The notes below the pieces were generated by a model. The model was not told the origin of the DNA. It saw only the letters and a program-made list of their open reading frames with translations, and searched no databases. Of a DNA stretch of 53,577 nucleotides, positions 6,054-52,220 are shown one piece after another (positions within the stretch are counted from its first letter, which is position 1; each line of letters starts with the position of its first letter). The stretch is from Clostridiaceae bacterium. GTDB lineage: Bacteria; Bacillota; Clostridia; Saccharofermentanales; Saccharofermentanaceae. A program made the position numbers and the translations under genes. The stretch lies in the NCBI GenBank assembly GCA_012838315.1, contig DUPM01000051.1, positions 1 through 53,577 of the forward strand. Direction: 5' to 3'.

Positions 6054-6647
6054 TTATGCGCGTTGTGAAAGAAAATTTCTCATGATGGTTTCTCCAACTG
6101 TGGTTAATATAGACTCCGGGTGGAATTGGATACCGAATACCGGAGCCGTCTTGTGATGAACGGCCATGATGGTCTGATCGGGCGCGAGTGCAGTGACCAC
6201 TAATTCATCCGGCATTTTTTGAGTGTTTGCGGCAAGAGAGTGATAACGTGCGACTTCGATAATCTCAGGAAGTCCGTGAAACAGGGGACAAAGGCTTTCC
6301 GCTCTCTCTTCATCCATTAAGATATGTACCGGGCGCTTCTTTCCGTGGACCAATTCAAGCGCGTGAATGATTTCTCCTCCGAAGGCCTCAACAATGGCTT
6401 GGTGTCCGAGGCAGATTCCAAGTATCGGTATTTTGCCGGATAAGCGCTTTATAAGGTCGATGGACACTCCGGCATCACGGGGGTAACCCGGTCCGGGAGA
6501 AATGATGATATGAGACGGAGAGAGTGCCTCAATATCTTCGATACTCAGTGCATCATTTCGAATGACTTTAATGTTTGGGTCAATACTTCCGACCAACTGG
6601 TAAACGTTGTATACAAATGAATCGTAATTATCAATCAGTAAGATCAT
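6054..6647 (-). CDS. trpG: Anthranilate synthase component II (glutamine amidotransferase)
   Basis: Supplies ammonia from glutamine to TrpE for anthranilate synthesis. The class I amidotransferase fold of 197 residues shows SPGPGYPRDAG, the nucleophile C79 in LGICLGHQAI and the His-Glu pair in FHPESI. The start overlaps the trpE stop (ATGA), which fits a 1:1 complex made by coupled translation. It is the last gene of the trp operon and converges on rlmH, with about 100 bases between and no clear U-tract terminator. A role shared with 4-amino-4-deoxychorismate synthesis (PabA) is possible, since some bacteria use one amidotransferase for both. Confidence 0.93.
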   Translation of the reverse strand: MILLIDNYDSFVYNVYQLVGSIDPNIKVIRNDALSIEDIEALSPSHIIISPGPGYPRDAGVSIDLIKRLSGKIPILGICLGHQAIVEAFGGEIIHALELVHGKKRPVHILMDEERAESLCPLFHGLPEIIEVARYHSLAANTQKMPDELVVTALAPDQTIMAVHHKTAPVFGIQFHPESILTTVGETIMRNFLSQRA

Positions 6648-8116
6648 CGCATACCTCCGGATTTTTCAAGTGCTGCGAAAAGTGCGCGCGCTTTATTCAT
6701 TGATTCCTCGTATTCCTTCTCGGCATCGGAGTCGGCAACAATACCTGCTCCGGCCTGAACGTGAATTTTTTGATCGCGAATTAACGCGGTTCTGATCGTT
6801 ATACATGTGTCCATATCGCCATCAAATCCGAAGTAGCCAACCGCACCGCCGTAAAGGCCGCGTCGCAAGGGCTCGAGTTCGTCAATAATCTCCATAGCTC
6901 GGATTTTGGGTGCGCCTGAAAGCGTTCCGGCGGGGAGTAGTGATGAGAGGACATCCACCGGACTGAAAGGCTCGCGCAGTTTTCCAAAAACGTTCGTGAC
7001 GATATGCATGACATGCGAGTACTTTTCGACGTGACCGATATTTTTGGCCTCAACGGTTCCGATTTCGGAGACTTTACCGACATCGTTTCTGGCCAAGTCG
7101 ACTAACATGTAATGCTCAGAAATTTCTTTTTCATCGCGGAGCAACTCTTCCTCGAGTGCTTGATCTTCTTCTGCGGTTTTGCCGCGCGGGCGTGTTCCCG
7201 CGATGGGGCAGGTCTCGATGATGTCGTTATTGATTCGAACGAGCATTTCCGGAGAAGAGCCGACAATTGCGGCGTCTTCGAGTTGGAAGTAGAACATGTA
7301 CGGGGACGGGTTTACGGTACGAAGCGCACGATAGACCGGCAGGGCATCTCCGAAATAATCGGAGCTGAATCGCTGAGACAAGACAACCTGAAAGATGTCC
7401 CCATCGCGGATGTATGCCTTGGCGCGTTCAACGCTCTCACAATAGCGATCATGTCCGCTGTGTGATTGAAAGTCTAACTCGGTCGGATGGACGCGAGCGG
7501 GCTTGATGGGTGACGTATCGTGGATACGAGCGATGATCTCAGAAATCTTCGATACCGCCTTGGTATAACCATCCACACCCTCTTCAGAAAATACGTTGAC
7601 AATCACTGCGGCCTCGTTCTTTAAGTGGTCGAAAACGATCACTTGCTCCGGAGCCATCAAGTGACAGTCCGGCATATCAATATTATCCGGATTGTTGTCC
7701 GGGAGGTTCTCGGCGTAACGAACGAAGTCGTATCCAAAGTAACCGACCAGCCCACAATAGAAATGATCAATGTAATCAAAGCGACCGGAAACTGATCGCG
7801 CTAAGATGTTTTTTAGTTGCTCGATTGGTTGATTCCCGAGGTTCTCTGCGGGGTAGTCGCGACTGCCGACACGGTAGTTGGAGACCCCTTTTTTGACGGT
7901 GTATTCAATCATCGGATTGGAGCCCATAATGGAGTACCTGGCCCAGCGTTGGCCATTTACGACACTCTCAAGAAGAAAGCTTTTAGCGCCGGTAGCAAAA
8001 CGTCTGAAAAGCGAAATAGGCGTGAATAAATCCGCAGGAATGCGCTGAACAATCGGGATGATACGCTTCTCTTGAAGCATTGCTGAAAACTGAGAATATG
8101 ATGGTTCAATCAACAT
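6644..8116 (-). CDS. trpE: Anthranilate synthase component I
   Basis: Converts chorismate and ammonia to anthranilate, the entry step of tryptophan synthesis. The 490-residue protein has the N-terminal FLLES motif associated with tryptophan feedback binding and the C-terminal chorismate-binding core, including LLPAGTLSGAPKIRAMEI and AGAGIVADSDAEKEYEE. Its start overlaps the end of trpA by seven bases, so it is clearly part of the same transcript. Its place near the end of the operon, after trpBA, is unusual: in most Bacillota trpE leads. The FLLES motif argues for TrpE rather than PabB. Confidence 0.95.
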   Translation of the reverse strand: MLIEPSYSQFSAMLQEKRIIPIVQRIPADLFTPISLFRRFATGAKSFLLESVVNGQRWARYSIMGSNPMIEYTVKKGVSNYRVGSRDYPAENLGNQPIEQLKNILARSVSGRFDYIDHFYCGLVGYFGYDFVRYAENLPDNNPDNIDMPDCHLMAPEQVIVFDHLKNEAAVIVNVFSEEGVDGYTKAVSKISEIIARIHDTSPIKPARVHPTELDFQSHSGHDRYCESVERAKAYIRDGDIFQVVLSQRFSSDYFGDALPVYRALRTVNPSPYMFYFQLEDAAIVGSSPEMLVRINNDIIETCPIAGTRPRGKTAEEDQALEEELLRDEKEISEHYMLVDLARNDVGKVSEIGTVEAKNIGHVEKYSHVMHIVTNVFGKLREPFSPVDVLSSLLPAGTLSGAPKIRAMEIIDELEPLRRGLYGGAVGYFGFDGDMDTCITIRTALIRDQKIHVQAGAGIVADSDAEKEYEESMNKARALFAALEKSGGMR

Positions 8117-8925
8117 ATAAAATCCTCTGTAAAGGTCTTCACTACGGCACCGAGCTTTTCGGCGATCTCAGTTTCACTGAGATGATCATGAACGGCCGAC
8201 TCAATCTGTTTAACCAGAGCTGAGCCGACGATGATACCGTCGCAGCATTTTTCCATAGCTCTTTTTTGCTCCGGAGTCGATATCCCGAATCCGAGACATT
8301 TAGGAATATCTGAATAATTGTTGAGCGAGTTCATATATTCTTGAAAATGTGTTTCAAATGTTTGCCTCTCGCCGGTGACTCCTGATGTGGATACGCAATA
8401 GAGGAAGCCTTTGGCTTCGGGAACAATCGTGCGAATTCGATCAAAAGATGTTGGAGTGACCATTGAGATAAGATAGATGCCGTACCGGTCTGCTGTTGGT
8501 TCAAGTTCGTCTCTTTCTTCAAACGGGAGATCTGGAATAATAAGTCCGGAAATGCCATTATCCTTACAGGCGGATAAAAACTTATCCTTGCCGTAAACAA
8601 AGACGGAGTTGTAGTAGAGCAAAAGCAGCACAGGAATATCCGGATAATCTGTCGTGACCTTACGACAAACATCGAAAACGTCCGTTAAGCGCGTGCCGGC
8701 GGCAAGCGCGCGTTCGTCCGCTCGCATAATCACAGGACCGTCAGCGGATGGGTCGGAGTAGGGGACACCAAATTCAATGACATCGGCGCCGTTTTCGATC
8801 ATTGCCTTTGCTATTAGGTATGTTGCGTTTGTCGAAGGGTCGCCGGCTGTAATAAATGGAATAAAGGCTTTCTTATTATCGGCGCGCAATTTCTGAAAGC
8901 GTATGTCAATCGGATTATTATTCAC
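8110..8925 (-). CDS. trpA: Tryptophan synthase alpha subunit
   Basis: Cleaves indole-3-glycerol phosphate to indole and glyceraldehyde 3-phosphate and channels indole to TrpB. The 271-residue TIM barrel has both catalytic acids, E51 in [11 protein letters not shown] and D62 in SADGPVI, and the phosphate-binding GFGISTPEQ segment. It overlaps the trpB end by eight bases and the trpE start by seven, the tight packing expected of an alpha2-beta2 complex made from one mRNA. Confidence 0.96.
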
Positions 8926-10114
8926 TTTGCATACCTCCTACCTTCAATCGACCGCGATACTGGCCGATGGCCTCCACATCTTTATCGCCACGACCGGATA
9001 CGGTGACGACGACGAGATCGTCTTTTTTGAATTGATCCTTGAGTTTCAGGAGTAATGCGACCGCATGAGCACTCTCAATCGCCGGAATGATTCCTTCGAT
9101 GCGGCTGAGATACTCAAATGCATCCACTGCTTCGTCATCGGTCACGGGAAGATATTCTGCGCGTCCGATATCGTGAAGGTGCGCGTGCTCCGGCCCAATG
9201 CCCGGGTAGTCGAGACCGGCAGAGATGGAGTATACCGGGGCAATCTGTCCTTCGTCGTCTTGAAGGAAAATGGACTTCATACCGTGAAAAACGCCGACGG
9301 TTCCGCCGCTGATAGAAGCGGCGTGCGTCTCGGTATCCATACCGCGGCCGGCGGCCTCAGATGCAATCAATCGAACACCTTTGTCATCAATAAATGGATA
9401 AAACGTTCCCATGGCATTGCTGCCGCCACCGACACAAGCAATCAGCGCAGTCGGAAGGCGGTTATAGCGTTCCAGAGTCTCACTTCGAATTTCATCGCCG
9501 ATGACACGTTGGAAATTTCGAACAATTTCTGGATAAGGATGTGGGCCGACTACTGATCCAATGACATAAAACGTGTCCGATACTCTTCGAGACCATTCAC
9601 GAAGGGCTTCGCTGGTTGCGTCCTTAAGCGTTGCCGTTCCGTCAGTCACTGCATGGACTTGTGCGCCCAAAAGCTCCATCCGGTAAACGTTGAGTGATTG
9701 GCGGCGCATATCTTCTTGTCCCATAAACACGTCGCATGATAGACCAAGATAGGCTGCTGCGGTTGCGGTCGCGACCCCGTGCTGACCGGCACCGGTCTCG
9801 GCAATCAAACGTTTTTTACCCATCCGAACCGCCAACAGTGCTTGGCCGAGAACGTTGTTGATCTTATGGGCACCGGTGTGGTTTAAGTCTTCGCGCTTAA
9901 GGAGCACAGTAAAGCCCAGAGCGTTGGAAAGACGCTCAGCGTAATACAAAAGTGAAGGCCTGCCGGCGTACTCTCTTAAGAAACGCTTGTATTCCGCGGC
10001 AAATTTCGGATCGCTCTGTGCTTGTCTGTATGCCGTTTCAAGTTCGTCTAACGCATACATCAAAGTCTCAGCAGCGTATTGACCGCCATATGGCCCGTAT
10101 CTTCCTTTTTTCAT
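8918..10114 (-). CDS. trpB: Tryptophan synthase beta subunit
   Basis: A PLP enzyme that joins indole and serine to give tryptophan. The 398-residue protein has the PLP lysine K84 in [15 protein letters not shown], the glycine-rich phosphate cup [10 protein letters not shown] and the [12 protein letters not shown] segment. It is of the TrpB1 type that pairs with TrpA. The start has AGAGGGA six bases upstream. The gap to trpC is about 50 bases, the longest but one in the operon. Confidence 0.97.
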
Positions 10115-10162
10115 TAAAATCCCTCTTTTCTGAAATGTGTATATGTATGGATGTCGATTGAC

Positions 10163-11029
10163 TTATCTTCCGGCTCTGCCCGGGATATCGTTAAACAAAT
10201 TCGAAATGGCTGATTCTACAGCGTTCTCGGTCTCTGCGTGTCGCATCAGGCTTTCCCCGACGAGCACGGCGCGAACGCCACTACGATAGCAACGAGAGAT
10301 GTCTGTCGCTGTGAATATTCCACTCTCGGAAACGATTGTTTTTCCTGCCGGAATCATAGGAGCGAGTCGCTCTGTCGTCGCCAAGTCAACATGAAACGTA
10401 TGTAAATCGCGATTATTGATTCCGATAATGCGTACGTTGAGATCCAATGCCCGCATCAACTCCTGCATGGTATGGACCTCGAAAAGAACCGAAAGTCCCA
10501 GGCTGTGCGCGATGTCTATGAACTCTTTGAGGGCTTCATCGGGCAGTATGGCTGCAATCAATAATACTGCAGATGCACCAAGAATTCTTGCTTCATAAAT
10601 CTGGCCGGCGTCGATTGTAAAATCCTTGCGCAGGATTGGCAAGCTAACACTGTCACGCACATCGGTCAGGTAGCGATCACTTCCGAGGAAGAAATCCTGC
10701 TCGGTTAGAACGGAGATGGCTTGGGCACCACCTTTGGCATACGCGCGAGCCTGTGTGACGGGATTGAAATTCTCGCAAATGACGCCTTTAGAAGGTGAAG
10801 CCTTTTTTATTTCGGCGATTAATGATAGCGGGGTCGACTGCAAGGCGGCCTCAAAATCTGCGCGCGGCTTCGGGCTGCTTTCTGCCAACTTAACAAGCTC
10901 ATTGAGTGACCGGTGCTCCATACGAGCGATAATTCGCTCTTTTTTTTGAGCAACAATTCGGTCGAGTATTGTATGGGTCTCGACGGTCTTGATTTTGTCT
11001 TTTTCAGCGTTGATAATAAATTGACTCAT
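10163..11029 (-). CDS. trpC: Indole-3-glycerol phosphate synthase
   Basis: Closes the indole ring: carboxyphenylaminodeoxyribulose phosphate to indole-3-glycerol phosphate. The TIM barrel shows EIKKASPSKG, LRKDFTID, IGINNRDLHTF and SESGI. At 288 residues it is only the TrpC domain: there is no fused TrpF domain, which matters because no trpF occurs in the operon. The N terminus to about residue 22 is longer than usual (families often begin near ILDRIVAQKKERI). AAAAGGA about 12 bases before ATG 11029 supports the longer start weakly. Confidence 0.94.
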   Translation of the reverse strand: MSQFIINAEKDKIKTVETHTILDRIVAQKKERIIARMEHRSLNELVKLAESSPKPRADFEAALQSTPLSLIAEIKKASPSKGVICENFNPVTQARAYAKGGAQAISVLTEQDFFLGSDRYLTDVRDSVSLPILRKDFTIDAGQIYEARILGASAVLLIAAILPDEALKEFIDIAHSLGLSVLFEVHTMQELMRALDLNVRIIGINNRDLHTFHVDLATTERLAPMIPAGKTIVSESGIFTATDISRCYRSGVRAVLVGESLMRHAETENAVESAISNLFNDIPGRAGR

Positions 11030-11078
11030 ATAGCATTAATTCCTTTTCTTGGTGCTACTTCAGATTCTCCATACATTA

Positions 11079-12110
11079 TTACATAGTGACAATCTCTTCG
11101 CGATTCGTGAAAACGCGAATCTGTTCAATTTTTGCTTTGACTGCACCGGAGTCCAGTGCATCCTCTGCTTTTAGAATCGCTTCCGGAAATGTCTCGGTGA
11201 GGCCTGCGACATAAATGGTTGCGGCCGCGTTGAGCACAACAATGTCTCTATGAGGTCCTTTTTCACCTTCGAAAATTCTTGCAGATATTTCTGCGTTTTC
11301 TTCCGGCGTACCGCCGACAATGTCCGATAATGAGTAAGTCGCCATTCCGAACATGTCCGGTGTAACGGTGTACTCTTCGATGTGATCCGGTCGAACTTCC
11401 ATAATATATGTCATGCCGGTATTTGTAATTTCGTCTGAACCGTCTTCGGCATGGACGACCAGGGCATGTTGCTCACCGAGGCGTTGCAAAGTCTGCGCGA
11501 TAAAAGGCATCATTGATCGGTCATAGACACCCAAAACCTGTGCTTTCGCGCCGGCAGGATTCGACAACGGCCCGAGAACATTGAAAATATTTCTAACCGC
11601 GAGTGCTCTACGCACAGGTCCTGCAAATCGCATTGCGGGATGAAAGGTCGGTGCAAACATAAATCCGAAACCCAGATCTTCAACACATTTTTCGACAGCA
11701 GCCGGGGAGAGGGTGATGTTAAACCCCATTGCTTCATAGAAGTCGGCGCTTCCGGATCGGCTGGATATAGAGCGGTTTCCGTGCTTGGCAACATTAGCGC
11801 CTGCTGCCGCAGCCACCAATGCGGCAGTTGAAGAAATATTAAAGGTATTGTTGCCGTCTCCGCCGGTCCCAACAGGATCGACACAAATTGCGACCTTGGG
11901 GTTGATTCGGTTGGCACGCTCGCAGAGTGCTTTTGCACCGCCTGTAATTTCTTCGACAGTTTCACCTTTGATGCGAAGAGCCATTAATAGTCCGGCAATC
12001 TGAATCTCGTTGGCATCCCCGGACATGACCTCGGAAATAGCCTGGTAACTTTCGTTTTCGGAGAGGTGTTGGCCGTCGGCCAGTTTTTTGATCGCGTTTG
12101 CAATATACAT
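11079..12110 (-). CDS. trpD: Anthranilate phosphoribosyltransferase
   Basis: Transfers phosphoribosyl from PRPP to anthranilate, step two of the pathway. The 343-residue protein has the PRPP site DPVGTGGDGNNTFNISS, the KHGNRSISSRSGSAD loop and the GPLSNPAGA region. An ATG at 12119 overlaps the ribosome site AAAGGATG; the next ATG at 12110 lies nine bases after the AAAGG and gives the family-like N terminus MYIANAIKKL, so I use 12110. It is the first gene behind the T-box leader, an unusual lead position for trpD. The protein is separate, not fused to TrpG. Confidence 0.94.
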   Translation of the reverse strand: MYIANAIKKLADGQHLSENESYQAISEVMSGDANEIQIAGLLMALRIKGETVEEITGGAKALCERANRINPKVAICVDPVGTGGDGNNTFNISSTAALVAAAAGANVAKHGNRSISSRSGSADFYEAMGFNITLSPAAVEKCVEDLGFGFMFAPTFHPAMRFAGPVRRALAVRNIFNVLGPLSNPAGAKAQVLGVYDRSMMPFIAQTLQRLGEQHALVVHAEDGSDEITNTGMTYIMEVRPDHIEEYTVTPDMFGMATYSLSDIVGGTPEENAEISARIFEGEKGPHRDIVVLNAAATIYVAGLTETFPEAILKAEDALDSGAVKAKIEQIRVFTNREEIVTM

Positions 12111-12140
12111 CTTCGTCATCCTTTCATTTAAAAAACATAC

Positions 12141-12177
12141 AAAAAAGCCCTTGTCCCTAAATGCAGGGACAAGAGCT
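12141..12177 (-). terminator. Regulated terminator of the trp T-box
   Basis: On the minus strand AAGCTCTTGTCCCT pairs with AGGGACAAGGGCTT around a short loop and runs into six T residues. It is 31 bases before the trpD start and is mutually exclusive with the antiterminator formed by the T-box sequence. Confidence 0.92.
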
Positions 12178-12425
12178 TACACTCCTGCGGTACCACCTTG
12201 CTTGACCGTGCGTAAAGCATGGTCCACTCTAATCTCGTACTATCATACGATTCCGCCTGATAACGGGCCGGATCCCCGTCGGTGCCTACTCGAATAAATC
12301 TTTCGGACCGCCCTCGTAAGTCCATTCGTCAGAAACCAACATGCCGCGATTCCACCATCCACGACTCTCTATAATACCAGTCACTCCGAGTACTACTCTT
12401 ACTCAACAGTTTCTTATAAATTAAC
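12141..12425 (-). ncRNA. T-box leader, tryptophan-specific (specifier UGG)
   Basis: On the minus strand the leader has a Stem I base (GTAAG near 12401 pairing with CTTAC at 12317-12321). Next to it is the specifier region GAATGGA, with UGG at 12322-12324 followed by A, as T-boxes prefer a purine there. The conserved T-box AAGGTGGTACCGC lies at 12187-12199, and a terminator follows at 12141-12177. Uncharged tRNA-Trp should pair with UGG and, through its NCCA end, with the UGGN bulge to favour the antiterminator and allow transcription of trpDCBAEG. The T-box motif and class are clear; Stem I details are read by eye. Confidence 0.93.
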
Positions 12426-42769: not shown

Positions 42770-43741
42770 ATGAAAAAAGTGATTGCACTACTGCTCGCTG
42801 TCGGTCTTTCTATGGCAATAATTGCCGGTTGTTCTGAAAAGCAAAAGGAAGACGTGACCATTCGAGTGGCCGGACTCAAGGGTCCGACATCCATGGGCAT
42901 GGTCGGTCTGATGGACGCTTCCGACAAGGGGACATCTAAGAACAAATATGAATTTTCGATACATGGAACTGCTGATGAAGTGACACCTAAACTAATTAAC
43001 GGTGAGCTTGATGTGGCGGCAATTCCGGCTAATTTGGCGTCCGTACTTTTCAACAATACGGAAGGCAAAATTCAAGTCCTCGCGGTCAATACATTAGGCG
43101 TCAATTATATCGTTGATATGGGTGATGATGTTAACACTTTTGCTGACCTTAAGGGAAAGACGATTTTTGCATCGGGCAAGGGCTCTTCTCCTGAGTATGC
43201 GTTAAGATATCTCTTGACTCAAAATGGCATTGACCCCGATAATGATGTCACTATTGAATTTAAGTCAGAGGCCTCAGAGGTGGTTGCGTTGATGGCCGAA
43301 AATCAATCCGGCATTGCCATGTTGCCGCAACCCTATGTGTTTGTCGCAAAAGCAACGCTTCCTGAGCTTCGAGTCGCAATTGACATGAATCAAGAGTGGG
43401 CCAACCTCGACAATGGAAGTTTGATGATTACCGGTGTTGTTGTAGCACGAGCAGATTTTGTTAAAGAAAATCCGGATGCGGTTAAGGCGTTTCTGGAAGA
43501 GTATAAAACCTCAACCGAATATGTGAATGCAAACCCAGCGGATGCTGCAGTATTGATCGAAAAGTATGATATCTTTAAAGCAGCGATAGCCGAAAAGGCC
43601 ATTCCGTTCTGTAACATCACCTACATAGCCGGTGGAGAGATGAAGGCCGCCATGGAGGGGTATTTGAATGTTCTTTACAATGAAAACCCAAAAGCGGTCG
43701 GAGGAAAACTCCCGGAGTCCGGCTTCTACTACGGCGCGTAA
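42770..43741 (+). CDS. NMT1/SsuA-type ABC transporter substrate-binding lipoprotein
   Basis: A 323-residue lipoprotein with lipobox IIAGC and lipidated C21. The fold resembles NMT1/THI5/SsuA binding proteins: ELDVAAIPANLASVLFNN, VNTFADLKGKTIFASGKGSSPEYALRYLL and SGIAMLPQPYVFVA. Such proteins bind sulfonates, thiamine precursors or other small aromatic or anionic ligands; none is indicated here. GGAGGAAA precedes the ATG. Its last 74 bases overlap the permease gene in another frame. Confidence 0.9.
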   Translation: MKKVIALLLAVGLSMAIIAGCSEKQKEDVTIRVAGLKGPTSMGMVGLMDASDKGTSKNKYEFSIHGTADEVTPKLINGELDVAAIPANLASVLFNNTEGKIQVLAVNTLGVNYIVDMGDDVNTFADLKGKTIFASGKGSSPEYALRYLLTQNGIDPDNDVTIEFKSEASEVVALMAENQSGIAMLPQPYVFVAKATLPELRVAIDMNQEWANLDNGSLMITGVVVARADFVKENPDAVKAFLEEYKTSTEYVNANPADAAVLIEKYDIFKAAIAEKAIPFCNITYIAGGEMKAAMEGYLNVLYNENPKAVGGKLPESGFYYGA

Positions 43742-44483
43742 TCGCCTTTTTGAAAAACTAATTGCTGTCGTTGCCGCACTTGCCGTTTGGCAGGTTGCGG
43801 CAATGCTAGTTGACCAGAGTATTATTCTTGTTACTCCGGTTCGAGTTCTTGAAAAATTATTTATTTTGGTTCAGACTGCCGATTTCTGGTCGACTGTTCT
43901 ATATTCTTTGATTCGCATGAGTCTCGGATTTTTTGCGGCGCTGATTGCAGGTGTTTTGTTGGCTTTTTTTGCATCCCGCTTTCGGCCCATTGAGATCCTG
44001 TTATGGCCATACATGGCTGCGGTCAAATCGACGCCTGTTGCATCGTTTGTTATACTTTGCCTCCTGTGGCTCGGTGCGGCTCGTTTATCGGTGTTTATCT
44101 CATTTCTGATGGTTTTGCCCGTCATCTATACAAATGTGCTTCAGGGCATCAAGAGTACCGATAAGAAGCTTTTGGAGATGGCCTTTGTATTCCGGATGCC
44201 GATTCGAAGGCGACTCTTTTTTATTTATTTGCCGGGTGTGAAAAACTACTTTCTTTCTGCGGCAGGCGTAGCGATTGGCTTTGCCTGGAAAGCGGGAATA
44301 GCAGCCGAAGTGATTGGCATTCCCAAAGGTTCAATCGGTGAACGACTCTATGAGGCAAAGATTTACTTGAATTCAGCGGAGCTCTTTGCATGGACTTTGG
44401 TCATTGTCGTAATCAGTGTGGTTTTCGAAAAGCTCTTTTTGACTGCGGTTAAACGCGTTTACGAGAGAATGGAGAAGGTGTGA
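43668..44483 (+). CDS. SsuC/TauC-type ABC transporter permease
   Basis: A 271-residue permease with about six membrane helices and the binding-protein-dependent coupling loop near 165-195 (LLEMAFVFRMPIRRRLFFIYLP). The start lies inside the binding-protein gene: GGAGGGG at 43654-43660 is seven bases before ATG 43668, so the start is well supported despite the 74-base overlap. It works with the ATPase that overlaps its stop. Confidence 0.9.
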   Translation: MFFTMKTQKRSEENSRSPASTTARNRLFEKLIAVVAALAVWQVAAMLVDQSIILVTPVRVLEKLFILVQTADFWSTVLYSLIRMSLGFFAALIAGVLLAFFASRFRPIEILLWPYMAAVKSTPVASFVILCLLWLGAARLSVFISFLMVLPVIYTNVLQGIKSTDKKLLEMAFVFRMPIRRRLFFIYLPGVKNYFLSAAGVAIGFAWKAGIAAEVIGIPKGSIGERLYEAKIYLNSAELFAWTLVIVVISVVFEKLFLTAVKRVYERMEKV

Positions 44484-45052
44484 TGAATATACTTTTAGAG
44501 AACGTTGACAAACGTTTCGGGGAGAAGGTTGTTTTTGCGGATTTTTCGTTGCGTATGGTCAACGGGTCTTTAACGGTCATAATGGGGCCTTCCGGTTGCG
44601 GGAAAACAACTCTATTAAATATGCTCATGGGTCTAACCGAGCCGGACAACGGTCGGATAGAGGGGGTTCCGTCACGCAAGGCAGCGGTTTTTCAAGAAGA
44701 TCGGCTCTGCGAACCATTTAATGCATTGGCAAATGTTCGAATGGTGTGTGCGCCCAATGTGGATGATTCGCTAATCCAATCTCATCTCACGCAACTCGGA
44801 CTTGCGGAAAGACTCTCCGTTCCGGTCAAAAATCTGAGTGGGGGGATGCGTCGACGTGTCGCAATCGCAAGGGCGATGCTCGCGGATGCTGAGATTATTC
44901 TGATGGACGAACCATTTAAGGGGCTCGATGATAAACTGAAATTTGAGACAATGGATTATGTTAAGCAGCACCGCAATCACCGCACATTGATCATGGTCAC
45001 TCACGACCGAGAGGAGTCTTTGTATATGGATGGTGAATTGATGATTTTATAA
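44483..45052 (+). CDS. SsuB/TauB-type ABC transporter ATP-binding protein, short
   Basis: A 189-residue ATPase with Walker A GPSGCGKTT, Q-loop AVFQEDRLCEPFNAL, signature LSGGMRRRVAIARAM, Walker B IILMDEPFKGLDD and H-loop MVTHD. It ends 15 residues after the H-loop, shorter than the usual 240-260, so the C-terminal part is missing but all catalytic motifs are present. GTG 44480 is possible, but ATG 44483, eight bases after GGAG, is preferred. Confidence 0.9.
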   Translation: MNILLENVDKRFGEKVVFADFSLRMVNGSLTVIMGPSGCGKTTLLNMLMGLTEPDNGRIEGVPSRKAAVFQEDRLCEPFNALANVRMVCAPNVDDSLIQSHLTQLGLAERLSVPVKNLSGGMRRRVAIARAMLADAEIILMDEPFKGLDDKLKFETMDYVKQHRNHRTLIMVTHDREESLYMDGELMIL

Positions 45053-45100
45053 TTTAGTCTTGTCAAATCTCATTTTCATCGTTATATTACCCGTATAAGC

Positions 45101-45263
45101 CATCGGTGCTTGTTAATTCAAGATAATAGGGAATGCGGTTTAAATCCGCAGCAGCCCCCGCTACTGTGAAGGGGACGAAATTCGTCAATTGCCATTGAGT
45201 CTTGATTGAGATTTGAGAAGGCGCGAAGAATAGGTTGACCCGAAGCCAGGAGACCTGCCGATG
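45101..45263 (+). ncRNA. Cobalamin (B12) riboswitch
   Basis: The region has the B12 riboswitch core GCAGCAGCCCCCGCTACTGT (45148-45167) and the B12 box GAAGCCAGGAGACCTGCC (45242-45259). CATCGG (45101-45106) and CCGATG (45258-45263) close the P1 stem. It lies just before the btuFCD-type genes and should lower their expression when cobalamin is abundant. Confidence 0.94.
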
Positions 45264-45300
45264 AGTTCGTTTTTTGTGTTTTCTTCGGAGGGAAGATAGG

Positions 45301-46352: not shown

Positions 46353-47396
46353 ATGAAGAGTAAACCGGTGGTGTTGGCTATTTTACTTACGGCATTACTT
46401 GCAATAATGGTTGCCGTCGCACTATCGGTGGGTGCCGTTCACGTCCAAATACGTGATATCATCCGCATTCTTATGTCATACATTCCGTTCTTTGATCAAC
46501 AGGTTTCTACAGCGTATATTCCGAAATCGCACGAGACCATTATTATGGCCATTCGATTACCACGGATTCTGTTGGCCGGATTAGTCGGATGCGGTTTATC
46601 ACTTTCCGGGGCGGTGCTTCAGGGGGTACTACGCAATCCGCTTGCCGATCCTCAAGTGCTCGGTATTTCATCCGGTGCGGCTTTCGGAGCTGCGGTGGCT
46701 ATATCTTTTGGATTCACTTACTCGGCGTTTGGACTTGGCGGCATTGCCGGCGCTGCTTTCGTCGGCGCGCTCGCAACCATATTTTGTGTCTTGAAAATAT
46801 CGTTTTCGGAGGGAAAATCTTCCTTGATTGGCATTTTACTTGCCGGCATTGCGATTAGCTCTCTTTTGACATCCGCGATAACGATGATTATGGTACTAGA
46901 TCGCGAAAAGCTCGAGAAGGTCTATATGTGGATGCTCGGTAGTTTTTCAGCCGCCAGTGAGATGCGAGTCATATTTATGCTTATATTCGTTGTGCTTGGG
47001 CTTCTGGCTATTTTACCGCTTTCAAGAGCCTTAGATTTGATGATGACCGGAGACGACTCTGCTCAGAGCATGGGTGTTGATGTTGAAGCTCTGCGCAAGT
47101 GGATGATACTCGTATCGTCACTTATGGTAGCGGCATGTGTTTCTGTCAGCGGAATAATTGGATTTGTAGGGCTAATCATCCCGCATGTTGTACGTCTGAT
47201 TGCCGGTCCGAGGCACACGCGTCTTTTGCCGTTGTCTTGTGTTGTCGGTGCGATATTTATGATCATCTGTGATACGCTGGCTCGGACCATGGCTGCGCCG
47301 TCTGAGATACCGGTCGGAGCTATTACGGCCATTCTCGGAGCACCCTATTTCTTATTTTTGTTGGCTCGCTCTGCGCGGAAGGGGGCAATCCGATGA
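46353..47396 (+). CDS. btuC: Cobalamin ABC transporter permease
   Basis: A 347-residue FecCD/BtuC-family permease with about ten helices. Typical segments: RLPRILLAGLVGCGLSLSGAVLQGVLRNPLADPQ is present around 70-103, seen as LSGAVLQGVLRNPLADP. GLIIPHVVRLIAGPRHTRLLP near 275-295 is also typical. It follows btuF by 18 bases and overlaps btuD by four. Confidence 0.94.
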   Translation: MKSKPVVLAILLTALLAIMVAVALSVGAVHVQIRDIIRILMSYIPFFDQQVSTAYIPKSHETIIMAIRLPRILLAGLVGCGLSLSGAVLQGVLRNPLADPQVLGISSGAAFGAAVAISFGFTYSAFGLGGIAGAAFVGALATIFCVLKISFSEGKSSLIGILLAGIAISSLLTSAITMIMVLDREKLEKVYMWMLGSFSAASEMRVIFMLIFVVLGLLAILPLSRALDLMMTGDDSAQSMGVDVEALRKWMILVSSLMVAACVSVSGIIGFVGLIIPHVVRLIAGPRHTRLLPLSCVVGAIFMIICDTLARTMAAPSEIPVGAITAILGAPYFLFLLARSARKGAIR

Positions 47397-48226
47397 ACAG
47401 GATTTCTTCGAAAATTATGCGTGTGAATTCTGTTGATGTTAGCGGTTTGTCTTGGCAACCGTCAACGGCACCTAGATTGCTGCTTGATCATATTAATTGT
47501 CGTTTGGAAGAGGGTCATTTCTACGGCATAATCGGTCCGAACGGCTCTGGAAAGACCAGCTTAATTCGTCATCTTCTTGCACTTCAGTCGATCCAGAGCG
47601 GCTCGATTGAGATTGAGGGTGTTCCGATCGGGTTGTTTTCAAAAAAGCAACTCGCGAGACATTTTGCATACGTCGCTCAAAAAATACCTTCTAACTATTC
47701 TTTTACGGTATTTGAGACGGTCGCGATGGGACTTTTTGCCAGAAGCCGTTTTTTTGAAGCACCTTCAATTCAGATGATTGAGCAGGTGAATGAGGCTTTG
47801 CTTGCGACGCAGACTCTTCAATACAAAGATCTTCCGTTTGCAGTTCTCAGTGGTGGCGAGTCACAGCGTGTTTTGCTCGCTCGCGCTCTCGTGCAGTCTG
47901 CGGAGTGGCTTTTTCTCGACGAGCCGGTATCCAATCTAGATGTGTCGCATCAAGTGGAGATGATGGAAAAACTATCTTCGCTGCGACGCGAAAAGGGTAA
48001 GACTGTGGTTTGTGTACTTCATGATATTAACCTCGCAGCGCGCTATTGCGACTCGATTTTGATGATGAAGGCTGGTCGACTACTGTATAACGGGTCGACA
48101 AAAGAGTATCTTAACCGAGAGCACCTGCGAGACGTTTTTGATATCTCATTTGCGGTGCTGGCTCACCCGGTGACATCGGATATTATCTATGTACCGGATT
48201 ATGGACCGACGACTCGAAACGATTGA
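47393..48226 (+). CDS. btuD: Cobalamin ABC transporter ATP-binding protein
   Basis: A 277-residue FepC/BtuD-type ATPase with Walker A GPNGSGKTS, Q-loop YVAQKIPSNYSFTVFETV, signature LSGGESQRVLLARAL, Walker B WLFLDEPVSNLDVSHQ and H-loop LHDINLAARYCDS. GGAAGGGGG lies seven bases before ATG 47393. It completes the BtuFCD importer. Confidence 0.94.
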   Translation: MNRISSKIMRVNSVDVSGLSWQPSTAPRLLLDHINCRLEEGHFYGIIGPNGSGKTSLIRHLLALQSIQSGSIEIEGVPIGLFSKKQLARHFAYVAQKIPSNYSFTVFETVAMGLFARSRFFEAPSIQMIEQVNEALLATQTLQYKDLPFAVLSGGESQRVLLARALVQSAEWLFLDEPVSNLDVSHQVEMMEKLSSLRREKGKTVVCVLHDINLAARYCDSILMMKAGRLLYNGSTKEYLNREHLRDVFDISFAVLAHPVTSDIIYVPDYGPTTRND

Positions 48227-48314: not shown

Positions 48315-48980
48315 ATGATATATACCATGAAGTCTCCAAATATCAGTGCATATCTTGAAGCGTCGGAGTTCATTGATTTCGATCATCCAAAGGTGCGCAT
48401 TATTGCGGACTATTTACAAGAGCGCTTAATGCAACGTGTATCACTAGAACCTAATAAAATCCTCTATGATCCTGAACTCGAGCTTGCGCGATTAACATAT
48501 CTCCTTGTTCGAGATGAGGTGGCGTTCACATACGATATCGGCAAACAAGACGTGACAATCAAAGCGTCAGATGTTCTTACGAAAAAACACAGTGGTTGTT
48601 TTGGAAAATCGCATTTGCTTGCGGCACTGATGCGCGCCAACGGTATTCCGGCGGCGGTGTGTTACCAATATCTTCGCCTAGATGACGGAGATAATGCTCC
48701 GCTTATTCTTCATGCGTTGAACGCGATTTGCCCCGAGTCTGTCGGTAGTTGGTTTCGATTAGATGCTCGAGGTAATAATGATTCTGTTTCGGCGGAATTC
48801 TGCATTGACGAGGAGCGTATTGCATATCCTGTCGACCCGGGTCGTGGTGAGACCGACTTAAGCCTTCTTTTCGCAAAGCCGGATTACTCTGTCATTCGTG
48901 TATTGAATCAATACACTGATGCTAGTGTTCTGCGATTGCATTTGCCGGACAAAATTGCTGGTCGATATTGGGAGTCGTGA
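48315..48980 (+). CDS. Transglutaminase-like cysteine protease-fold protein
   Basis: A 221-residue cytoplasmic protein with the transglutaminase-core triad in the right order: C95 in HSGCFGKSHLLAALMRANGIP, H133 in LILHALNAI and D150 in WFRLDARGNN. Bacterial members are usually proteases or amidases of unknown substrate. The ribosome site is a plain GAGAG run. It is 67 bases before the AMP-binding gene, so both may share a transcript. Confidence 0.85.
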   Translation: MIYTMKSPNISAYLEASEFIDFDHPKVRIIADYLQERLMQRVSLEPNKILYDPELELARLTYLLVRDEVAFTYDIGKQDVTIKASDVLTKKHSGCFGKSHLLAALMRANGIPAAVCYQYLRLDDGDNAPLILHALNAICPESVGSWFRLDARGNNDSVSAEFCIDEERIAYPVDPGRGETDLSLLFAKPDYSVIRVLNQYTDASVLRLHLPDKIAGRYWES

Positions 48981-49046: not shown

Positions 49047-50888
49047 ATGCAGATCGTTGAAGGAAAAGGATTCTATAACGCGAGGTTGTTCTCGAATCTC
49101 AAAGAAATGCTGGCACAAAGCGTCTCTTTGTATGCGCGACACGTTGCTTTTCGGCACAGGCGGTCACCTGAGGCCAAAATCACATCATGTACGTATACAG
49201 AATTGGACTCAGACATTAGTGCGCTGGGCGAGGCGATGCTGAGATTGGGGTTGTCTGATTGTCGCATTGCAATTATTGGCAAGAACAGTTACTCCTGGGC
49301 GCTAGCACACTTAACTATTATCACCGGTGTCGGTACATCAATACCACTTGATCCGTCGCTCTCAGAGAAAGAACTGATGGTTTTATTAGACCGAGCGGAA
49401 GTGACGGCCGTTTTTTTTGATTCAAATTTTGCACCACTCATGGCATTGCGCTCGACTATTGACTCAGGTATAAAGTATTACGTTGAAATGAATGATACGG
49501 ACACGTCTGAAGTGTTCGAGAGCGGCATGCATATCCAATTTGACGCGCTTCTCAACCTAGGAAGAATTCCGGGGTCGACTCTTTCGATTGCGAATCGTGA
49601 GGATATTTCGCTTGCGGAGCCTGTCTCGTTCGAAGAGATAATAATCAATCCAGAGTTGCCGGCAACGATATTTTTCACCGCGGGTACGGCTACGACGACG
49701 AAAGGGGTGATATTATCACACGCCAATGTCGCTTCTAATATAAGCTCGATTGCTCGCAGTTTTCACTTTTCATCCGGTATCAGAATGCTTTCGGTCTTGC
49801 CGATGCATCATGCGCTTGAAAATGTGTGCGGGTTGCTTTTCGGACTTTACTCCGGAGCATGTATATGTATTTCTGACGATGTATCGCTCATTCGGAAAAA
49901 TATGATTGAGCACAAGATAAGTCTTATTGTCGGCGTTCCGGCCATTTACGAGTGTTTTTACAAGAATGCGAAAGCAGCGATTGAGCGAAATGGGACAGGT
50001 GTTGCGGTACGGCGACTGGGACATTTGAGCAAGCGGTTGTTTGAGGCGAATGTCGACGTGCGCAGATTATTATTTGTGCCCATGCAACGAGCCTTCGGTG
50101 GGCGATTTCGATATGGTATATGCGGTGCGGCTACGCTCAATTCAGATATAGTGCGTTTTTTTGATAGCGTTGGCATTCGCATTTATCAGATATATGGATT
50201 AACGGAGACATCATCGATCGTCTCTGCATGCACAGAAGCGGTTTTTCAACCGGGAACGGTCGGTCTCCCTTTAGCTGGTGTAAAAATGGCTATTGCGAGT
50301 GAAAAAGAGGGTGAGGACGGGGAAATTCTTGTCAAAGGACCGATGGTCACGAAAGGTTATTTCGATGATGATTTGGCAACGGCTTCTGCTTATGACGATT
50401 CTGACTGGTTTCATACCAGAGATATCGGACGCGTTTACGCTGACGGCACAATCGGAATCGTTGGCAACATGAATTCTGTCATCCGATCGAAAAGCAATAC
50501 GGCGGTATATCCTGAACAATTGGAGATACTACTTTCTAAGCACAGATGCATCAAAGAATCATTTGTTTTCGGAGACGTAGATGCCGGTGGGGAAGTAGCG
50601 ATTAATGTGAAATTCGTGCTGGACACGGCATTTCTTAAACCTTCAGAAATAAGCGAAGCGCAGATTACGCAAAAACTTGATCAAGTGGTTCTTGAGGTTA
50701 ATATGCAAATGGCTGATCACCAGTGTATAAAGAATTACGTCTACAGTTTCCAGCCATTAAAAAAGACGACTACGTTACGTATTAAGAGGCCGTCAGAAAT
50801 TCGTGCTCTGCAGGCGGTGCTAGATTCGCGAAATCTTCAATTCAGCGACCTCAATCGTCAAAACATAGATATCGATCCGGATCGCTAG
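49047..50888 (+). CDS. AMP-binding (acyl-CoA synthetase-like) protein with altered catalytic motifs
   Basis: A 613-residue ANL-superfamily protein related to long-chain acyl-CoA synthetases. The adenylate motif YGLTE (383-387) is intact. Others are changed: the P-loop reads TAGTATTTKG (211-220) instead of TSGTTGxPKG. The usual TGD is TRD (457-459), the GR of the hinge region is GN (473-474), and the A10 lysine before the final IKR is Arg (R578 in TLRIKR). Several in-frame starts exist; ATG 49047 is six bases after GAGGGA. It may be a divergent ligase or a non-catalytic relative. Confidence 0.82.
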   Translation: MQIVEGKGFYNARLFSNLKEMLAQSVSLYARHVAFRHRRSPEAKITSCTYTELDSDISALGEAMLRLGLSDCRIAIIGKNSYSWALAHLTIITGVGTSIPLDPSLSEKELMVLLDRAEVTAVFFDSNFAPLMALRSTIDSGIKYYVEMNDTDTSEVFESGMHIQFDALLNLGRIPGSTLSIANREDISLAEPVSFEEIIINPELPATIFFTAGTATTTKGVILSHANVASNISSIARSFHFSSGIRMLSVLPMHHALENVCGLLFGLYSGACICISDDVSLIRKNMIEHKISLIVGVPAIYECFYKNAKAAIERNGTGVAVRRLGHLSKRLFEANVDVRRLLFVPMQRAFGGRFRYGICGAATLNSDIVRFFDSVGIRIYQIYGLTETSSIVSACTEAVFQPGTVGLPLAGVKMAIASEKEGEDGEILVKGPMVTKGYFDDDLATASAYDDSDWFHTRDIGRVYADGTIGIVGNMNSVIRSKSNTAVYPEQLEILLSKHRCIKESFVFGDVDAGGEVAINVKFVLDTAFLKPSEISEAQITQKLDQVVLEVNMQMADHQCIKNYVYSFQPLKKTTTLRIKRPSEIRALQAVLDSRNLQFSDLNRQNIDIDPDR

Positions 50889-51305: not shown

Positions 51306-52220
51306 ATGGCAATGCAAGAGACCATTCGTCAACTTTTCGAATCTTATAATGAATATATTGAAGCGGAAAGTGAAAGAATACTAACTTCGACTTCGCAACG
51401 TGTTGATTTGTATTCCAAAGAATATCACGATTATTTCCAAGGACTTCTGAACGAAAAAACAGAGGCGTTCTTTGATCGACCGCTTGCTTCCATTGGAGAC
51501 ATGAGTCCCAACACGTATTTCAAATCGCTCACGAGCGTAGAAGAGTGTGTTGAGGCCTTTATGATCGGAGCTGATGTATGTGATGATGTCGTTCCCAAAG
51601 GTCTGTTAGAGCGCTTGCTGTCTTTCGGAGAAAAAGCGGTCGTCAGCCTCTTAGATATTTCTTTGGCCGAGGATTGGCGAATAGAAGAGGCGAAGGACAC
51701 GATGGATGCCAGGGAGGCACTTTCCGGGTCGATGTCTGCAATTCGCGTCCTCGGAAGAATTGGAGCCATTGAGGCTGTCGAACCGATACTTGAGCGCTAT
51801 GGGACACTTGAAGGTCCGGATGAATATATAGCCGACGTCATTCAGTCTTTTCTCCAGAATATCGGAGAGCCTGCGGTTGCTTCTCTGTTGATGAGAATCA
51901 ACAACGCTTCTCAAATTCCGGCCCATTCTGCTGAAGAAGACTACGTTGTTGCCCTGTCACAAATTGGTGCGCGAGTTCCTGACGAGAGCATCTATCAGGC
52001 ACTTCGAGGTGCCTTCAGAAAACTTGAGCGTAAGCTCATCGGGGTGTTGTGTTTTGGCGATTACGGGGACACTCGTGCTGTGATATTGCTGAAAAATTAT
52101 TTAGATCGTAACCAACATGCGTTAACTCGAGATATTTTTTACGAAGCGATGTCTGTTATTCAAAAGCTTGGAGGAGATATCAACGATATTCGAGATCCGT
52201 TTAAAGATTTCACAAAATGA
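51306..52220 (+). CDS. HEAT-like helical-repeat protein of unknown function
   Basis: A 304-residue, acidic, all-helical cytoplasmic protein. The middle and C-terminal parts (about 95-290) contain repeated helix pairs of HEAT type: AIRVLGRIGAIEAVEPILERY, then IQSFLQNIGEPAVASLLMRI and CFGDYGDTRAVILLKNYLD. HEAT repeats act as binding scaffolds; no enzyme motif is seen. GAGGG precedes ATG 51306. It overlaps the YqxD-type gene by four bases. Confidence 0.78.
   Translation: MAMQETIRQLFESYNEYIEAESERILTSTSQRVDLYSKEYHDYFQGLLNEKTEAFFDRPLASIGDMSPNTYFKSLTSVEECVEAFMIGADVCDDVVPKGLLERLLSFGEKAVVSLLDISLAEDWRIEEAKDTMDAREALSGSMSAIRVLGRIGAIEAVEPILERYGTLEGPDEYIADVIQSFLQNIGEPAVASLLMRINNASQIPAHSAEEDYVVALSQIGARVPDESIYQALRGAFRKLERKLIGVLCFGDYGDTRAVILLKNYLDRNQHALTRDIFYEAMSVIQKLGGDINDIRDPFKDFTK

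Follow-up and report, generated by a model that had tools for sequence, protein, structure and literature searches.

A probable genus-restricted pseudoenzyme paralogue of clostridial AMP-forming acyl-CoA synthetase

Adenylate-forming enzymes of class I make up a very large superfamily (ANL), of which the fatty acyl-AMP ligases (FAALs) are members without acyl transfer to CoA. The closest described relatives of the protein reported here are the long-chain acyl-CoA synthetases of this superfamily (PRK06187-like in NCBIfam, PF00501 in Pfam). According to PMC6122825, five residues are invariant in 374 class I adenylate-forming enzymes, a survey that took in 17 FAALs and 84 luciferases: Glu328, Gly384, Asp418, Arg433 and Lys524 in T. 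thermophilus LACS numbering, which was mapped onto the present protein by motif alignment, not structure. The position matched here to residue 491 is always acidic in the same survey. According to Table 2 of that source, replacement of the linker Arg with Ala leaves E. coli ACS activity "essentially abolished" and lowers that of CBL 100- to 600-fold, and replacement of the A10 Lys with Ala lowers CBL activity about 500-fold and FadD13 activity by 96%. On the other hand, a change of the A8 Gly of CBL to Leu (G409L) removes thioesterification alone. None of those 374 enzymes departs from the linker Arg or the A10 Lys; a member that is maintained although it has neither would reveal the capacities of the fold in the absence of its chemistry, and would caution against ligase annotation of similar genes.

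In the stretch of DNA analysed here (the window, 53,577 nucleotides from a Clostridiaceae bacterium), one gene encodes a protein that shares with the long-chain acyl-CoA synthetases a full-length AMP-binding domain, the YGLTE motif, the A7 Asp and the P-loop Lys. In contrast to these enzymes, it has Asn and Arg in place of the linker Arg and A10 Lys, and it is without the hinge-position residue, the A8 Gly and the acidic residue of the C-domain. It also differs from the FAALs, which keep the linker Arg and A10 Lys (17 among the 374 enzymes of PMC6122825), a comparison made at these residues. Judged from its sequence, the window protein is probably a genus-restricted pseudoenzyme paralogue of clostridial AMP-forming acyl-CoA synthetase, to which we assign a probability of roughly 0.62. 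None of the matches listed from the openly licensed PMC literature deals with an acyl-CoA synthetase that is non-catalytic.

Family assignment and active-site residues

The gene and its motifs are located in the window as follows.

49047..50888, + strand: acyl-CoA synthetase-like pseudoenzyme candidate; ATG start, 613 aa; Pfam AMP-binding PF00501
49677..49706, + strand: P-loop (A3) TAGTATTTKG, residues 211-220; S212A and T215A relative to the subfamily TSGTT
50193..50207, + strand: A5 YGLTE, residues 383-387, intact; the preceding Gly382 is Ile (Val in L031)
50415..50423, + strand: A7 TRD, residues 457-459; Asp459 is retained, and Gly458 is Arg in the window copy alone
50466..50519, + strand: A8 linker and C-domain loop; R474N, K476N, G484N, K485T, E491Q
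50778..50780, + strand: A10 catalytic Lys replaced by Arg578, by motif alignment

Homologues were searched among 39 relatives, 115 family genomes and 188 order genomes (overlapping sets), and matches were found in 58 of the 115 family genomes at E 1e-90 or better and in 24 of the 188 order genomes at 1e-120. One close relative was found, 73% identical, in G001, the sole other genome of the genus in the searched sets (L031, record JAAYBI010000028.1, a Clostridiaceae MAG); it has the same losses and the same gene order. The next-best relatives are seven motif-intact copies at 45-47% identity. In the window's own genome, a motif-intact paralogue lies on a separate contig (G000:C106, hereafter L051), with a TAG directly before its open frame. 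A scan of viral contigs gave 4 remote relatives at 25-29% identity, which were set aside.

The start ATG at 49047 is supported by a ribosome-binding site (GAGGGAAG) directly 5' of it, which is conserved in L031, and M1 is invariant across 12 aligned rows. PF00501 matches residues 33-439 (ATG numbering), which is most of the protein, with 188.5 bits and an E value of 2.2e-55, placing it in the ANL fold family. No AMP-binding_C or other C-domain match to the window protein was found in Pfam. With PF23562, for which the cut-off is 20.8 bits, L031 scores 17.2; among motif-intact copies, L051 (33.8 bits) and L035 (37.4 bits) pass, and L052 (19.2 bits) falls below. The residue alignment continues through the C-domain of the window protein. 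Among NCBIfam models, a long-chain-fatty-acid--CoA ligase gives this protein its highest score (184 bits, where 476 are required), and none of the best 25 of 88 models reaches its cut-off; the motif-intact paralogue is likewise below (216 against 476 bits). This suggests an acyl-CoA synthetase-like subfamily that is not covered by the models listed. By homology, the gene is an acyl-CoA synthetase paralogue. AlphaFold2 run on two sequences only (the window protein and L031) gave no usable fold (mean pLDDT 34, pTM 0.24).

In the alignment, T211, S212, T214, K219, T386, E387, G425, D459, R474, K476 (which we take to be the "hinge" position), G484, E491, E493 and K578 are each present in 84 of 84 homologues. 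The window protein and L031 have both lost the usual residue at positions 212 (A/A, window/L031), 474 (N/N), 476 (N/H), 484 (N/K), 491 (Q/Q) and 578 (R/R). Position 215, which is T in 81 homologues and S in 3, is A in both. On the other hand, T211, K219, T386, E387, G425, D459 and E493 are kept in both proteins, and Y383 is also kept in the window protein. Of the P-loop hydroxyls and Lys, T211, T214 and K219 are thus retained in the window protein, S212 and T215 are lost, and T214M occurs in L031 only. Of the five residues invariant in the survey, E387, G425 and D459 remain, and the linker Arg and A10 Lys are N474 and R578. The A8 Gly of the phosphopantetheine tunnel, G484, is gone from both proteins.

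An earlier note on this DNA had described an intact YGLTE, a hinge GR changed to GN and an A10 catalytic Lys changed to Arg, and the alignment bears out all three (383-387, N474 and R578). The same note had counted a P-loop without TTGxP as a loss; that motif is indeed absent, but the missing Gly and Pro are normal in this subfamily (TSGTTSMSKG or similar), and the real losses are S212A and T215A. Its TRD in place of TGD is present, but this change is private to the window copy: position 458 is G in 83 homologues and F in 1, and the 73%-identical L031 has TGD. The four changes it named are real, but the list was incomplete, as K476N, G484N, K485T, E491Q, G382I, P390S and others are also found. 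The note had proposed alignment with homologues as a check, and changes confined to this copy, as a sign of decay, would have refuted its reading; those at 212, 215, 474, 476, 484, 491 and 578 are shared with L031, and only TRD is unique. Sequencing error was rejected as the source of the shared changes, since the two assemblies agree; it may lie behind TRD.

A slow but normal acyl-CoA synthetase, in which Arg578 itself or the nearby Lys580 or Lys572 replaces the catalytic Lys, would accord with the certain family membership (PF00501) and with the closeness of these two lysines to R578. However, the A10 alignment is free of gaps (TTTLRIKR in the window protein against TTTLKIKR), and with the linker Arg and A8 Gly missing too, a displaced Lys would not suffice; we regard this explanation as improbable. 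Two points of the same kind bear on the pseudoenzyme reading. The change from Lys to Arg is conservative and may allow weak adenylation with Arg, and the kept E387, D459 and T386, judged by alignment, may allow residual activity.

Loss at conserved columns and selection on the gene

The alignment contains the window/L031 pair and 84 fetched homologues, 44 from the first searches and 40 from the family and order searches; many weaker matches, the fragments L042, L043, L054 and L058, and loci that repeat included genes were left out of the 84. At columns at least 98% conserved in these homologues, the window protein deviates at 15 of 56 and L031 at 15 of 56, with 13 shared. In a leave-one-out control over the 84 homologues, the largest number of deviations is 5 of 58 columns, with a median of 0. 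The loss of near-invariant residues from the window protein is far above chance. Similarly, in the smaller set (44 homologues, 95% threshold), the pair deviates at 20 and 21 of 76 columns, against at most 9 of 79-85 for the others. When the columns invariant in nine near homologues were taken instead (236 in all), the pair departed from them at 72 and 75, and three distant motif-intact homologues at 71-74. This implies that the overall divergence of the pair is ordinary and that the excess lies at the most conserved sites.

At six of the 13 shared lost columns, the two species agree in the replacement residue (A212, M253, S390, N474, Q491 and R578), and this could mark a new site. The protein would then still be an enzyme with altered chemistry, in which Arg578 and the rebuilt linker serve adenylation, transfer to another acceptor (e.g., a protein or carrier, not CoA) or the reverse reaction. 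The kept Mg/AMP-side residues (E387, D459, T386, T211 and K219) also fit such an enzyme, and the loss of G484 by itself would fit the loss of the CoA tunnel, as with CBL G409L (PMC6122825). However, the remaining seven shared lost columns differ between the window protein and L031, as expected of unconstrained sites, and the survey of 374 enzymes in the same source has no exception to the linker Arg and A10 Lys, FAALs and luciferases included. An enzyme with altered chemistry thus appears unlikely.

Identity between the window gene and L031 is 79.5, 88.6 and 46.4% at the first, second and third codon positions, respectively. Their NG86 dN/dS is 0.068, with a dS of 2.5, so the synonymous divergence is saturated. 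Among neighbouring genes, six gave dN/dS estimates of 0.059-0.096 and five gave none, after two antisense frames (0.199 and 0.519) had been dropped from the comparison; the motif-intact paralogue pair has a dN/dS of 0.046. Neutral simulation to the same nucleotide identity yielded a mean of 19.7 stops per lineage (minimum 6) and 19% amino acid identity (at most 22%), against no stops and 73% amino acid identity observed. The intact frames in both species and the codon-position identities show that the gene is under purifying selection and not decaying.

A long branch leads to the pair in two trees, with 1.35 and 1.89 changes per column where the motif-intact g1 pair has 0.28 and 0.26, and this accords with the pseudoenzyme reading. 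The pair has also drifted faster than the motif-intact paralogue pair (72.9% identity, compared with 88.4%). Taken with T214M in L031 and TRD in the window copy, which look like continuing loss of the active site, this lower identity could suggest an ordinary gene on its way out, functionless after recent relaxation in one genus. However, the frame, ribosome-binding site and gene order are intact in both species at near-saturated synonymous divergence, and the codon-position identities and the simulation also stand against decay. On these comparisons, decay seems largely refuted, and we consider it highly improbable. A relaxation specific to the C-domain was also considered, with the N-domain taken up to residue 472, and was rejected as evidence: p was 0.008 against the L051/L033 control pair, but 0.11-1 against the other seven pairs.

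In the trees, the pair, L051 and the copies of genus g5 (L034, L035 and L036) fall in one nine-row clade with support of 100/99 and 100/100 (two trees). L051 and the g5 copies have the catalytic residues that the window protein lost. Within this clade, the best tree groups the pair with the motif-intact g1 copies at weak support (49/79), and three other arrangements are not rejected by AU tests: the pair with the g5 copies (p 0.435), the pair with L037 (p 0.494), and a single clade of all seven motif-intact copies (p 0.413). The trees do not place the pair within the clade, and the duplication may have occurred either inside the genus or earlier.

Possible function of the window protein

Based on the results presented above, the features expected of a pseudoenzyme are found together in this gene: catalytic residues are lost, purifying selection is seen and the gene is conserved between species, of which there are two only. 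Several needed residues are lost, yet the gene is intact in two related bacteria, so it probably has a new job without the usual chemistry. That adenylation chemistry is lost or changed, as suggested earlier, appears well supported by the changes in two species, the purifying selection and the near-dead Ala mutants of the linker Arg and A10 Lys in PMC6122825. Against the pseudoenzyme reading, it rests on two genomes, both of them draft assemblies.

The residues contributed by the linker and C-domain to both half-reactions are gone, and if the protein is a pseudoenzyme, normal adenylation or thioesterification would be impossible for it. The N-domain keeps residues predicted to face Mg2+, the alpha-phosphate, the ribose and the adenine (T211, K219, Y383, T386, E387 and D459), and its binding of a nucleotide-like or acyl-adenylate ligand is probably retained. 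The window protein would then probably act as a non-catalytic sensor or partner, its most likely partner being the motif-intact paralogue of the same genome or the operon neighbours; our choice of ligand and partner is a guess. The same genome supplies the motif-intact paralogue as a control, which makes the idea directly testable.

The cobalamin riboswitch locus

The genes and elements around the synthetase-like gene are listed below. The BtuF, BtuC and BtuD families were assigned by Pfam, and the Btu names lean on the riboswitch.

45087..45276, + strand: cobalamin riboswitch; RF00174, 118.7 bits
45318..46334, + strand: BtuF-like periplasmic binding protein; PF01497, below every equivalog cut-off, name taken from the riboswitch
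46353..47396, + strand: BtuC/FecCD-type permease; PF01032, no NCBIfam cut-off reached
47393..48226, + strand: BtuD-like ATPase; PF00005, no cut-off reached among the 25 NCBIfam matches listed
48315..48980, + strand: transglutaminase-like protein, 221 aa; PF01841
51038..51112, + strand: tRNA-Cys(GCA); also 3' of the synthetase in L032, L034, L035 and L036
51118..51149, + strand: terminator-like hairpin that follows the tRNA; from a consensus scan with 11 hits where 8.1 were expected across the region

The order in the window is thus riboswitch, BtuF-, BtuC- and BtuD-type genes, transglutaminase-like gene, synthetase-like gene, tRNA-Cys and hairpin, and it is conserved in G001 as far as the tRNA. 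The synthetase-like gene and the cobalamin-type transporter genes that follow the riboswitch are probably expressed together. In the g5 loci L034, L035 and L036, the order is riboswitch, BtuFCD, a flavodoxin-like gene, a motif-intact synthetase and tRNA-Cys; an intact enzyme therefore occupies the position of the window gene in the sister genus. The gene before the synthetase differs, being flavodoxin-like in g5 and transglutaminase-like in the window, and no transglutaminase-like match was found in the three g5 genomes at 1e-10. The flavodoxin-like gene was assigned by Pfam in L035 and by 71-74% identity to the L035 copy in L034 and L036. In G003 (L037), flavodoxin-like, transglutaminase-like and motif-intact synthetase genes stand in a row. 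The flavodoxin-like genes lie at L034:8303-8713, L035:7851-8438, L036:12321-12713 and L037:2105-2506.

The transglutaminase-like neighbour named in the earlier note is real, and its presumed triad of Cys, His and Asp is conserved in eight aligned rows. Of 35 transglutaminase-like matches, 18 were fetched (17 from g4, and L097 from G003), some of the stretches ending at contig ends. In these loci outside the window and G001, BtuD is present in 16 of 18 (all but L097 and L106) and a synthetase in 1 of 18 (L097); in genus g4, the transglutaminase-like gene accompanies BtuC/BtuD, with no synthetase in the fetched stretch. Going by gene neighbourhoods, the transglutaminase-like protein is no less a partner of the cobalamin-type transporter than of the synthetase-like protein, which suggests a role tied to cobalamin-type uptake. 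It is a repeated BtuC/BtuD neighbour in g1 and g4 (window 48315-48980; L098-L114).

A more specific proposal is that the pseudo-synthetase replaced a standard one in the cobalamin-riboswitch operon, and that it acts as a non-catalytic sensor for ligands of the adenylate type, be it AMP, acyl-AMP or the adenosyl moiety of adenosylcobalamin, and signals to the transglutaminase-like protein or the standard paralogue. We consider this scenario speculative and decidedly unlikely.

Other features of the region were observed. Directly before the riboswitch, a three-gene ABC transporter (binding protein, permease and 190-aa ATPase) spans 42770-45052; its permease has a weak SaoP-like match below the cut-off of that model, and the gene order is kept in G001, L034 and L035. 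On the 3' side of the tRNA-Cys, a HEAT-repeat-like protein is encoded at 51306-52220, with homologues downstream in G001, L035 and L036 (40-80% identity). Farther away, frames resembling tryptophan biosynthesis genes, judged by eye, lie at 6054-12415 on the minus strand, with a T-box leader ahead of them at 12162-12415.
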